Shown: piece by piece, positions 8,764 through 53,539 of the stretch
Numbering within the stretch: position 1 is the stretch's first letter
Layout of the letters: each line of letters begins with the position of its first letter
Origin: Agrobacterium rosae
Lineage (GTDB): Bacteria > Pseudomonadota > Alphaproteobacteria > Rhizobiales > Rhizobiaceae
NCBI RefSeq assembly: GCF_002915175.1
Contig: NZ_NXEJ01000008.1
Location: forward strand, 283,096 to 347,095
Direction of reading: 5' to 3'
Length of the DNA: 64,000 nt
The notes under the pieces: generated by a model
The model's database searches: none
Seen by the model: the letters and a program-made list of their open reading frames with translations, nothing else
What the model was told of the DNA's origin: nothing
Translations under genes and position numbers: made by a program

Positions 8764-10611
8764 TTATTCGGCAACGTCCATCACGAGGCCTTTCGTCAGC
8801 TCCAGCGCCTGCTGCTCGAACAGGCCGCGATAGATGCCGCCCTTCTTCTGGATGAGGCTGACATGCGTGCCCTCTTCCGCAATCGTGCCGTGGCTGAACA
8901 CTAGGAGACGGTCGAGCGAGCGGACGGTTGAGAGACGGTGTGCCACGACCAGCGTCGTGCGCCCCTGCATCAACCGTTCCATCGCATGCTGGATCAGCAT
9001 TTCAGATTCCGAATCCAGGCTGGACGTCGCTTCATCGAGAATGAGCACGGGCGCATCTGCCAGAAACGCCCGGGCAATGGCGATACGCTGACGCTCTCCA
9101 CCCGAAAGTTTCACGCCACGTTCACCCACCAGCGTGCCATAACCCTTCGGCAGGGCGGTGATGAAGCCGTGCGCGCTGGCAAGCTTCGCCGCATTCTCGA
9201 TTTCGCTCTGCGTGGCGTTTGGCCTTGCATAGGCAATGTTTTCCGCCAGCGACCGGTGAAACAGGATCGGTTCCTGCTGCACGATGGCAATCTGCTGGCG
9301 CAGCGACGCCTGCGACACCTGCGAAATATCCTGCCCATCAATGCGGATAGAGCCGTGGCTGACATCATGCAGCCGCTGGATCAACTTGATGAAGGTCGTC
9401 TTGCCCGAACCGGAATGGCCGACAAGTCCCACCCGCTCACCCGGTTTGATGGTGACGGAAAAATCCTTGTAAAGCGGCGCGAGATGTTTGCCGTAATGGA
9501 AGCTCACCCGGTCGAACTCGATTTTTCCTTCATTGATGACAAGCGTCTTTGCGTTTGGCACATCGTCAATGCCAAGCGGCTGCGAATGGATGGAGACGAG
9601 CTCCTCCATATCGTTCACCGACCGCTGCAGGTTGCGGATATGCATGCCGATTTCGCGCAGGTAGCCTTGCAGGATGAAAAACGCCGTTAGAACGAAGGTG
9701 ATATCACCCGCGTTGGCTTTGCCGCTGGCCCAGAGCAACAGCGCAAGGCCGACCACGCCTGCCCGCATGATGCTGAGCAGGCCAGCCTGCAACGTGCCGT
9801 TGATGGTGCCGCGCGTCCAAGTCCGCCGTGTCCGGTCCTGCCACTTGCCCATGACGCGCGTCAGCCGGCTGTCTTCCCGCTCTTCCGCGCCGAAGGCTTT
9901 CACCACGGCATTGCAGGTCACGGCATCGGCCAGGGAGCCGCCGAGCTTGGTATCCCAGGCGTTGGCAAGACTTGCCATGGGCGCGACATAGCCAAGCGCC
10001 ATGCACACCGTGATGGCGACGAAAAGCAAGGAGCCCAGCCCGACAAGTAGGCCCATCATCGGCCAGTACCACGTCATCAGAACAGTCGATCCGATGAGCA
10101 TAATGACCGACGGAAACAGCGCGACGAACACCGTGTCGTTCAACAGATCCAGCGCCCACATGCCGCGCGTGACCTTGCGAACCGTCGAGCCGGCAAAGCT
10201 GTTGGCATGCCAATCCGAAGAGAAACGCTGGATGCGGTGAAACGAATCCGCAGCGATATCCGTCATGGACCGCAGCGTGAAACTGATGATCGTCATGAAG
10301 GTGGCGTGCCGCAAAATGACGGCCAACACGGCAAGACCCATGAGCCAACAGAATGCAGTGAGCGCATTGTTCCAGACGATGGGATCGCTGGCCGTGCCGG
10401 AGACCACGGCATCCACGAGATGACCGGCAAACATTGGCGTCAACACATCGGCGAGCGTGGAAAACAGCACGGCGCACAGCATGAAAGCCACACGACCGGG
10501 TTGTTGCCGCCAATGCGCCCAACAGAAACGAAAAACGCTGCGAAACGCCTGACTTCGGCGCATTTTCAAACCAAAAGACATGAACAGCATCCGGCTGGCA
10601 GCCGGTCCCAT
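8764..10611 (-). CDS. ABC exporter, fused membrane and ATPase domains (MsbA/multidrug type)
   Basis: The 615-residue half-transporter has six membrane segments in residues about 35-320 and an ATPase domain in about 360-600. Walker A is GHSGSGKTT, the signature LSGGERQRIAIARAF, and Walker B VLILDEATSSLDSES. It should work as a homodimer in the inner membrane, exporting lipids, drugs or peptides; the substrate cannot be told. The start is uncertain: the ATG at 10611 has no clear ribosome site, and other ATGs follow at 10590 and 10563. Its long leader holds a 15-codon ORF and competing hairpins, which suggests induction by a compound that affects ribosomes (see the leader entries). Confidence 0.87.
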   Translation of the reverse strand: MGPAASRMLFMSFGLKMRRSQAFRSVFRFCWAHWRQQPGRVAFMLCAVLFSTLADVLTPMFAGHLVDAVVSGTASDPIVWNNALTAFCWLMGLAVLAVILRHATFMTIISFTLRSMTDIAADSFHRIQRFSSDWHANSFAGSTVRKVTRGMWALDLLNDTVFVALFPSVIMLIGSTVLMTWYWPMMGLLVGLGSLLFVAITVCMALGYVAPMASLANAWDTKLGGSLADAVTCNAVVKAFGAEEREDSRLTRVMGKWQDRTRRTWTRGTINGTLQAGLLSIMRAGVVGLALLLWASGKANAGDITFVLTAFFILQGYLREIGMHIRNLQRSVNDMEELVSIHSQPLGIDDVPNAKTLVINEGKIEFDRVSFHYGKHLAPLYKDFSVTIKPGERVGLVGHSGSGKTTFIKLIQRLHDVSHGSIRIDGQDISQVSQASLRQQIAIVQQEPILFHRSLAENIAYARPNATQSEIENAAKLASAHGFITALPKGYGTLVGERGVKLSGGERQRIAIARAFLADAPVLILDEATSSLDSESEMLIQHAMERLMQGRTTLVVAHRLSTVRSLDRLLVFSHGTIAEEGTHVSLIQKKGGIYRGLFEQQALELTKGLVMDVAE

Positions 10612-10680
10612 AAAAGAAGGAAAAACGGAATCCGCGCTGGATTGATGCGCGAAATAATTTGGGGAAAAACAAGAAAGAGC

Positions 10681-10750
10681 TAGCTCAGCCAGCTATTGTG
10701 TTGCGATCTCTTGATGAGAAGAGAGGCTGGGCCTCAGCCGTGATTGGCTG
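10681..10750 (-). promoter_or_regulatory. Attenuator-like set of competing hairpins in the ABC exporter leader
   Basis: On the minus strand the segment GGCTG at 10739-10735 can pair either with CAGCC just before it (10750-10746, inside the end of the leader ORF) or with CAGCC just after it (10729-10725). The second CAGCC can instead pair with a GGCTG at 10690-10686, which otherwise sits in the loop of a TAGCT/AGCTA hairpin (10681-10695). Another hairpin lies at 10707-10724 (TCTCTT/AAGAGA). A pyrimidine-rich tract with T runs follows the last hairpin (10680-10666). Mutually exclusive pairing next to a short ORF is the layout of a transcription or translation attenuator. This is read by eye, not folded. 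Confidence 0.6.
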
Positions 10751-10781
10751 ATGCCACCGGGGAGTTAGAAAAATATGCCAT
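10734..10781 (-). CDS. Putative 15-residue leader peptide upstream of the ABC exporter
   Basis: The ORF encodes MAYFSNSPVASANHG and has a near-perfect Shine-Dalgarno (GAGGGAGG, about 10796-10789) with a 7-base spacer. This is much better than any ribosome site of the exporter itself, whose start lies about 120 bases downstream on the same strand. The stop codon sits inside the first of several competing hairpins. The peptide resembles no family I can name. A ribosome-stalling leader controlling the exporter is inferred from layout only. Confidence 0.55.
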   Translation of the reverse strand: MAYFSNSPVASANHG

Positions 10782-11096
10782 CAAATACCTCCCTCGTTAA
10801 CGTTGATGGGGACATCGTATGCATCTTAAATCAAAAGACCAGCCCATTTTTTATTCAGATGCAACTAAACCTCTGGCTGCGGCAGAGTTGCCACAGGTAG
10901 CGCCGACGGTGGCGGTATGGGCCGGCACGCCCCTCCCCATTTCCGCGTAAAAAACTGGCATTGCAAAGTCATTGTCCCCATATGCCAAAAGAAGAATTTT
11001 TCTCCTCTCCATCGCGCCTTTTGTGGATGATTATTTGGCGACTTTGCACGCGCGACAAGAGAAAATCAGATTCTAACCTTATGCTTGGAGCATGCC
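10782..11096. other. Divergent intergenic region, exporter leader and peroxiredoxin gene
   Basis: The stretch should hold the promoter of the leader/exporter transcript (minus) and of the peroxiredoxin gene (plus). No further ORF with a good ribosome site and no certain operator was seen. Confidence 0.5.
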
Positions 11097-11756
11097 ATGA
11101 CGTTGCGTATCAACCAGACCGCCCCGGATTTTACCGCCGATACAACCCAGGGGTCGATCAGCTTTCATGAGTGGATCGGCGATAGCTGGGCTGTCCTGTT
11201 TTCTCACCCCAAGAACTTCACGCCGGTCTGCACCACGGAACTGGGCGCGATGGCGGGCCTCGATGGCGAGTTCAAGAAGCGCAATGTGAAGGTCATCGGC
11301 ATTTCGGTCGATCCGGTGGAAAGCCACTCCAAGTGGAAGCAGGACATCCAGACCGCAACCGGCTTCGAGGTTGCCTATCCGCTGATCGGCGACAAGGACC
11401 TCAAGGTCGCAAAGCTCTACGACATGCTGCCGGATGATGCGGGCGAAAGCTCCGAAGGCCGTACGCCTGCCGATAACGCGACCGTTCGCTCCGTCTACGT
11501 CATCGGCCCCGACAAGAAGATCAAGCTGATCCTCACCTACCCGATGACCACAGGCCGCAACTTCGATGAAATCCTGCGCACAATCGACTCGATCCAGCTG
11601 ACCGCCAAACACCAGGTGGCGACACCGGCGAACTGGAAGCAGGGCGAGGACGTGATTATTACGGCTGCGGTTTCGAATGAGGATGCGATTACGCGGTTTG
11701 GTTCGTTTGATACGGTGTTGCCGTATTTGCGCAAGACGAAGCAGCCGCAGGGTTGA
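11097..11756 (+). CDS. 1-Cys peroxiredoxin (Prx6 family)
   Basis: The 219-residue cytoplasmic enzyme reduces hydrogen peroxide and alkyl peroxides. The peroxidatic cysteine lies in NFTPVCTTELG near residue 45. The Prx6-type C-terminal dimerisation arm is present (NWKQGEDVII near residue 180, then a basic tail), and the YPMTTGRNFDEILR segment near residue 150 is typical. The ATG at 11097 has GGAG 6 bases upstream; a TTG four codons earlier is in frame but lies within that site. The gene appears monocistronic, divergent from the ABC exporter leader. Confidence 0.93.
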   Translation: MTLRINQTAPDFTADTTQGSISFHEWIGDSWAVLFSHPKNFTPVCTTELGAMAGLDGEFKKRNVKVIGISVDPVESHSKWKQDIQTATGFEVAYPLIGDKDLKVAKLYDMLPDDAGESSEGRTPADNATVRSVYVIGPDKKIKLILTYPMTTGRNFDEILRTIDSIQLTAKHQVATPANWKQGEDVIITAAVSNEDAITRFGSFDTVLPYLRKTKQPQG

Positions 11757-53332: not shown

Positions 53333-53539
53333 GTCTTGTCTCCATTGACGGGACCTGGCGAGATCGGAGGACACCGGATGGTGAGGAGCTCGTTTGCCAG
53401 TTCGTCGGCCATCAAGAAAAAAGAAAAATCCTGATGTTCTTCAGCGCCATCATGTCCGTTTGACACGGCGGCTCTGCCAAAAGAACGTACCCCTTGGACA
53501 ATGGTTCCTAAAAAATAGAATACGAATATGAGGGAACGA

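Follow-up and report, generated by a model that had tools for sequence, protein, structure and literature searches.

A conserved upstream open reading frame and a putative hairpin-bridged start site in the leaders of ExsA-type ABC exporter genes

Translational attenuators of the erm and cat type carry a short leader open reading frame (ORF) before a transport or resistance gene, with hairpins downstream. PMC12218461 shows the S. meliloti gene duf1127_1 (sORF26) to be repressed through transcription attenuation, which requires translation of a 29-amino-acid upstream ORF (uORF) and depends on its C-rich codons 3-10. According to the same text, transcription starts 30 nt before the uORF, attenuation is relieved by tetracycline, the gene is induced by chloramphenicol, and Rho, together with masking by a hairpin with the uORF ribosome-binding site, has been proposed to act (PMC12218461). 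Among the 30 most induced genes, that text also lists SM2011_RS23660, which follows two small ORFs and is the leading large gene of an operon for ABC multidrug transport. In Bordetella pertussis, translation of the copper-responsive uORF bp2923 underlies attenuation of the Rho type at a transporter operon, as described in PMC12218461 (see also PMC9426467). Split translation initiation regions, with a hairpin between the Shine-Dalgarno sequence (SD) and the AUG, are described for genes 38 and 25 of phage T4 (PMC3014915, available in part). In the literature searched, whose coverage leaves out most subscription journals, we found this SD-hairpin-AUG arrangement described only for phage T4, and we found no published description of a leader ORF at exsA.

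We analysed the leader of an ABC exporter gene in a 64,000-nucleotide stretch of Agrobacterium rosae DNA (the window; Table 1). All relatives share an exporter start 12 codons upstream of a conserved FRSV-type motif, and the start of the window's exporter is therefore placed at ATG 10581. A first-pass annotation of this DNA had found no good ribosome site at the exporter start, which holds for ATG 10611 but not for ATG 10581, whose SD, TGGGA (10610-10606), is set apart from it by a hairpin (10605-10591). The exporter is 97% identical to that of A. rubi TR3 and 75% identical to its S. meliloti ortholog, and within the window's genus it is found in 32 of 39 genomes. None of the 25 NCBIfam models listed for it reached its curated cut-off, the best being MsbA_rel (367.6 versus 780.4 bits). 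The S. meliloti ortholog lies on pSymB, flanked by galE and queC-queD-queE, with exoZ and other exo genes nearby; we take galE to be exoB and queC to be exsB. This gene order identifies the S. meliloti ortholog as exsA, the ABC transporter gene that adjoins exsB in the available text of two reports (PMC1403797, PMC12239276), and by sequence comparison the window's exporter is an ortholog of S. meliloti ExsA. A review (PMC1403797, available in part) describes ExsA as important in the transport of high-molecular-weight exopolysaccharide I, so that drug export by this pump finds no support here.

Table 1. Features of the exporter leader in the window, in order of increasing coordinate.
Feature	Position	Strand	Basis or comment
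ABC exporter, ExsA ortholog	8764-10581	minus	605 aa from conserved start ATG 10581
Bridging hairpin P6 between SD and AUG	10591-10605	minus	covariation; 9 nt from P6 to ATG
Exporter SD TGGGA, 5' of bridging hairpin	10606-10610	minus	sequence
Hairpin P5 (TTCGCGC / GCGCGGA), then T-rich stretch	10631-10653	minus	98.4% paired, no two-sided change
Pyrimidine-rich tail of P4	10661-10677	minus	sequence, terminator scan
Hairpin P4, terminator-like	10678-10694	minus	93.2% of cells paired, 3 pairs changed on both sides
Hairpin P3	10707-10724	minus	pairing in 92.6% of cells, two-sided change in 1 pair
Hairpin P2, uORF stop codon in 3' arm	10730-10755	minus	pairing in 84.0% of cells, two-sided change in 1 pair
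uORF MAYFSNSPVASANHG, 15 codons and a stop codon	10734-10781	minus	sequence; conserved in relatives
C-rich element CTCCCC, uORF codons 6-8, complementary to uORF SD	10759-10764	minus	sequence
uORF Shine-Dalgarno GAGGGAGG	10788-10795	minus	duplex with 16S tail -12.7 kcal/mol
Weak promoter-like pair GCTGGT-N18-TACGAT, in the place of the relatives' CTTGGC-N17/18-TATTAT	10814-10843	minus	position by comparison with L009
Upstream element TGGCAACTCTGCCGCA, operator-like, possible regulator site	10878-10893	minus	sequence

The 15-codon leader ORF behind an SD, which the first-pass annotation had reported on the exporter's strand, is present in the window (Table 1), and alignment of orthologous leaders, the check that had been proposed for it, bears out its conservation. 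Our comparison comprised 130 loci (81 + 29 + 20), drawn from exporter relatives in named genomes (the best 80 of 168 confirmed stretches), from a further search that gave 64 places in 61 of 297 genomes (29 loci used besides the window's own), and from 20 fetched out of 34 places without a locus. An ATG ORF of 10-30 codons at -270 to -150 relative to the exporter start, led by an SD with a duplex of -7 kcal/mol or better, is found in 119 of the 130 loci, compared with 1.5% of dinucleotide-shuffled upstream sequences. At a stricter SD cut-off of -10 kcal/mol, the figures are 94/130 and 0.2%. The leader sequences are related, so these counts are not independent. Within the window's genus, for which 29 further loci were read, the uORF is present at all 28 loci with a resolved start (that of L261 is unresolved). 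Outside the order, a convincing uORF occurs in 9 of 27 loci with a resolved start (L201-L205, L219 and L228-L230, the last three from outside the class); the exporter start was unresolved in 4 of the 32 loci of this distant-ortholog set. Presence can differ within a genus, Pigmentiphaga kullae (L086) having the uORF and P. humi (L087) lacking it. We consider it almost certain that a regulatory uORF leader is conserved before ExsA-type exporters and, judged from these alignments, the leader is kept across an order (Hyphomicrobiales) and in some relatives outside it.

Further counts refer to a set of 121 leaders, which includes near-duplicates and holds 104 distinct uORFs. Nine loci with no accepted SD-led ORF at -270 to -150 were omitted from it (L087, L108, L110, L115, L119, L121, L122, L132 and L136), and in L021, L023 and L029 the conserved ORF at -191/-192 was assigned by hand, the automatic choice having differed. 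Among the omitted loci, L121 has a 44-codon ORF at -327, and L122, L132 and L136 are second exporter copies in their own genomes, without the conserved uORF. L108, L110 and L115 have no SD-led uORF and may carry an ORF without an SD: an ATG follows shortly after a TATAAG/CATAAG-like -10 sequence, perhaps as a uORF without a leader, ending in ...TSVRS.

In 92/121 leaders, against 1/121 control regions, there is a promoter-like -35/-10 pair whose -10 lies some 40 nt ahead of the uORF ATG; the copy in the window has diverged too far to fit this pattern. Since the pair lies just upstream of the uORF, the uORF probably opens the mRNA, with transcription predicted to start about 27 nt before it. A transcription start inside the supposed leader, which would have spoken against the first-pass reading, is thus not what the relatives suggest, their predicted start lying upstream of the ORF. 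Sequences of the GTTGCAAnnnnGCCGCA type, a pattern written after the sequences were seen, occur in 50/121 leaders at a median of 116 nt before the uORF ATG, and in 0/121 shuffled leaders. The window's version, TGGCAACTCTGCCGCA, lies upstream of the promoter-like pair and is possibly the site of some regulator.

Folding of the window's leader alone is mildly unusual compared with shuffled sequences (z -1.95, 4/200 as good; for a longer stretch z -1.76, 14/200), and the case for structure therefore rests on comparison. Across 120 leaders, local folding is better than shuffled directly 3' of the uORF stop (mean z values of -1.17 and -1.26) and, ahead of the exporter ATG, at about 70 nt (-0.98) and at 36-12 nt (-0.89 to -0.77); it is no better than shuffled near -48, around the uORF start and in the exporter coding part. 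In the window's clade, represented by 9 of its 10 distinct leaders (L264 carries an insertion and was omitted), 92.1% of the cells of P2-P6 are paired and the covariation score is matched by 1/500 shuffles; the number of pairs with two-sided changes (29/500 shuffles as high) and the pair types (349/500) are not exceptional. P5 is also present in Rhizobium rows of a leader alignment, and Phyllobacterium has a longer version, for which 69 pairs are predicted and two-sided changes are seen in 8. The hairpin with a U-rich tail that had been noted before the exporter is indeed there, at 10694-10678, and positions 10400-11150 contain three terminator-like sites versus a shuffled mean of 1.0. Terminator-like hairpins occur in 53/121 leaders versus about 25% of shuffles, and are hence enriched rather than universal, which led us to reject a universal intrinsic terminator. 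A possible long-range contact between the uORF SD and the pyrimidine tract that precedes the exporter (columns 19-23 with 196-200) was likewise rejected, the outermost of its five pairs being broken in 6 of 20 rows.

At the exporter itself, the SD lies too far from the AUG and a hairpin lies between them, as in the T4 genes. The hairpin P6 would shorten the SD-AUG spacing from 24 to 9 nt in the window, close to the values in the available text on T4 (22 to 5 nt for gene 38 and 27 to 11 nt for gene 25). The 40 nt directly ahead of the exporter ATG are more stably folded than their shuffles (mean z -1.18 over 118 leaders, 71 of them below -1). In 36 sequences from Ensifer and Phyllobacterium, 94.8% of the cells of the split-site hairpin are paired and 14 cells are changed on both sides; none of 500 shuffles reaches either value or the covariation score, and the number of pairs with two-sided changes (77/500 shuffles as high) and the pair types (74/500) are not exceptional. 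Here as for P2-P6, it is the cell counts and the score that carry the support. The SD upstream of the hairpin is stronger, by a margin of 2 kcal/mol or more, than any at normal spacing in 94/121 exporters versus 43/275 other ORFs, a control whose starts were chosen by a normal SD and so favour normal spacing. By eye, the split site persists in distant orthologs without a recognised SD-led uORF (L208, L211, L216, L221 and L224). Unlike the T4 examples, the exporter is a cellular gene, and its arrangement, with stems that covary, is kept throughout an order and also outside it.

The leader closest in anatomy is that of duf1127_1, which we located in S. meliloti 4H41 and, through its protein at E 1e-15, in 5 of 151 family genomes; the protein was not found in the window's genome at that threshold. 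All six loci (L165 and L194-L198) combine an SD-hairpin-AUG arrangement at the gene with an SD-led uORF that lies 249-259 nt upstream, and the available part of PMC12218461 makes no mention that we found of this split start site. Both kinds of leader have a strong-SD uORF at the 5' end with transcription starting about 30 nt before it (a prediction for the exporter), a spacer richer in C than in G (mean ratio 1.28 behind the exporter uORFs) and an SD-hairpin-AUG at the controlled gene; C-rich early codons complementary to the SD, present in duf1127_1 and in the window, are a candidate further likeness. They differ in that the exsA leader precedes an ABC exporter rather than a DUF1127 protein and in that its uORF is mostly 13-16 codons long rather than 29. 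The complementarity between SD and codons is also weaker in the exporter leaders and absent in some lineages. An SD-complementary tetramer, TCCC or CTCC, occurs in 83/104 distinct uORFs, mostly at codons 6-9, versus a mean of 65.6 and a maximum of 76 in 300 trials with shuffled codons; the 21/104 uORFs without it include the whole Mesorhizobium set and five that are Bradyrhizobium-like. Overall, the SD-codon duplexes are no stronger than with shuffled codons (mean z -0.56; 20/123 at p 0.05). These duplex energies do not support SD:anti-SD pairing within the uORF as a universal feature, leaving the tetramer enrichment alone, and together with the 21 uORFs lacking the tetramer and the unstructured uORF start they make the masking half of the model weak outside some lineages. 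For duf1127_1, attenuation and induction were established by experiment, whereas the evidence on the exporter leader is comparative. The likeness between the two may be convergent, since only 5/151 family genomes have the duf1127_1 protein.

On this anatomy, an attenuator in which the uORF senses translation status and feeds a hairpin-bridged start site is the best supported reading of the exporter leader, the leader nearest to it having been shown to work in this way; we put its chances at slightly better than even. Sequence supports the uORF, the promoter position, the hairpins P2-P6, the split site and the presence of both signatures, uORF and split site, in duf1127_1 leaders, and the course of events is modelled on the systems compared. 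Transcription would begin at the promoter-like pair, about 27 nt before the uORF. During healthy translation, the uORF would be translated and the ribosome released at its stop, exposing the C-rich codons 6-9 and the C-rich spacer between successive ribosomes, and transcription would end before the exporter, through Rho, through hairpins (P4 and P5, for example) or through both. If translation inhibitors or a shortage of ribosomes interfere with initiation or early elongation on the uORF, a parked ribosome would hide the C-rich element, as duf1127_1 suggests; by the same analogy, the C-rich codons of some lineages would pair with the uORF's own SD and so hide it. With the element hidden, transcription would, again as for duf1127_1, read through into the exporter. 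P6 would then loop out the SD-AUG interval and give a working distance for exporter translation, as proposed from T4 genes 25 and 38. A response of the exporter leader to translation inhibitors is plausible, its anatomy matching that of the leader induced by tetracycline and chloramphenicol.

A switch of the erm, cat or TnaC style, in which ribosome stalling on the leader peptide, provoked by a drug or ligand, makes hairpins rearrange so that the start opens or termination is prevented, is distinctly unlikely in our estimate. It would account for the short SD-led ORF, for a Pro-containing middle in 91/104 distinct uORFs, for the uORF stop codon within P2 and for some purifying selection in the window's clade, where pN/pS is 0.31 (bootstrap 0.09-0.63), but the peptide varies from family to family and shows weak constraint in each of the other five sets, with pN/pS values of 1.04 (Rhizobium), 0.66 and 0.37 (two Ensifer sets), 0.70 (Phyllobacterium) and 0.60 (Mesorhizobium). 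In S. meliloti and S. medicae, moreover, the nucleotides CTCCCTACGGGGCGG in mid-uORF are kept but read in a different frame from that of other Ensifer; the same stop is regained through a second indel, so that the ORF stays open (in S. meliloti 2011 too). This weak amino-acid constraint and the frame shift with a restored stop suggest that the peptide counts for less than an open ORF and the nucleotides in it; among the uORF sets compared, we found no conserved arrest peptide of the kind known from erm, cat and TnaC. Nor do the proposed alternative stems persist. The four motifs said to form mutually exclusive pairings are correctly placed on the minus strand (CAGCC at 10750-10746, GGCTG at 10739-10735, CAGCC at 10729-10725 and GGCTG at 10690-10686), but among 8 relatives only A. 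rubi (L009) keeps the CAGCC at 10729-10725, and that in part (TAGCC), so that this set provides no conserved alternative stems gating the downstream gene; the window's clade instead keeps P2-P6 as a row of separate hairpins. The leader therefore resembles erm and cat in having a short ORF before a transport gene with hairpins downstream, and departs from them in its lack of a conserved arrest peptide, in an exporter SD that lies outside its hairpin and in these stems. It also shows no sign of the translation arrest near the uORF end or the copper signal on which bp2923 relies in the available accounts. What survives of the drug-responsive attenuator first proposed is a regulated leader with a translated-looking, conserved ORF before the exporter; the specific stems, a stall peptide and drug export are not supported.

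Rather less improbable, though we still doubt it, is plain translational control without attenuation, the uORF recruiting ribosomes and stabilising the leader while initiation proceeds at a rate, either fixed or dependent on temperature, that the split site determines. The distant orthologs that keep the split site without a recognised SD-led uORF would be expected on this account, and so would the lack of a universal terminator. It leaves unexplained, however, both the conserved hairpins between uORF and exporter and the anatomy held in common with the transcription-attenuating duf1127_1 leader. That the leader is mainly a trans regulator, its short RNA or peptide acting on other targets, has a precedent in the same bacterial family in S. 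meliloti peTrpL (PMC7298713, available in part), yet peptide and leader sequence diverge fast between families and it is the location ahead of this one gene that stays constant. We regard a mainly trans role as very improbable.

Returning to the translation-status-sensing attenuator, we raise as a tentative possibility that ExsA-type exporters and duf1127_1 genes share one leader class, 'uORF plus hairpin-bridged start site', that switches genes on when translation fails, the signal being translation status. ExsA would then join a general response of Hyphomicrobiales to ribosome-targeting compounds. Rather than a phage curiosity, the split start site would on this view act as a functional, covarying component of a cellular switch. 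If the attenuator reading holds, a rhizobial transporter that takes its name from exopolysaccharide export would be coupled to ribosome status through a leader without an Rfam family. The exporter leader would give the uORF mechanism proposed for duf1127_1 a second test case, and its more than one hundred natural variants could reveal what a hairpin lying between SD and AUG does to the level of translation.

Elsewhere in the window's genome, the start-site motif occurs at 28 places (control 6) when searched with a pattern that requires a CCGG core and leaves divergent hairpins outside its reach; four of them passed a simple gene-start filter, and among these four the exporter alone has an SD-led uORF. 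A looser SD/anti-SD pattern gave 19 matches (control 3). One of these matches, another SD-ATG-antiSD palindrome at C22:794280-794318 (L154 781-819), has no convincing gene context. Rfam covariance models gave no match in 8 ortholog loci, nor in positions 10500-10900 at E values up to 5. Over the whole window, a single match was obtained at gathering scores; it lies away from the leader, on the minus strand at 53371-53475, and belongs to the Rhizobiales sRNA family Atu_At1 (RF02496, 77 bits).
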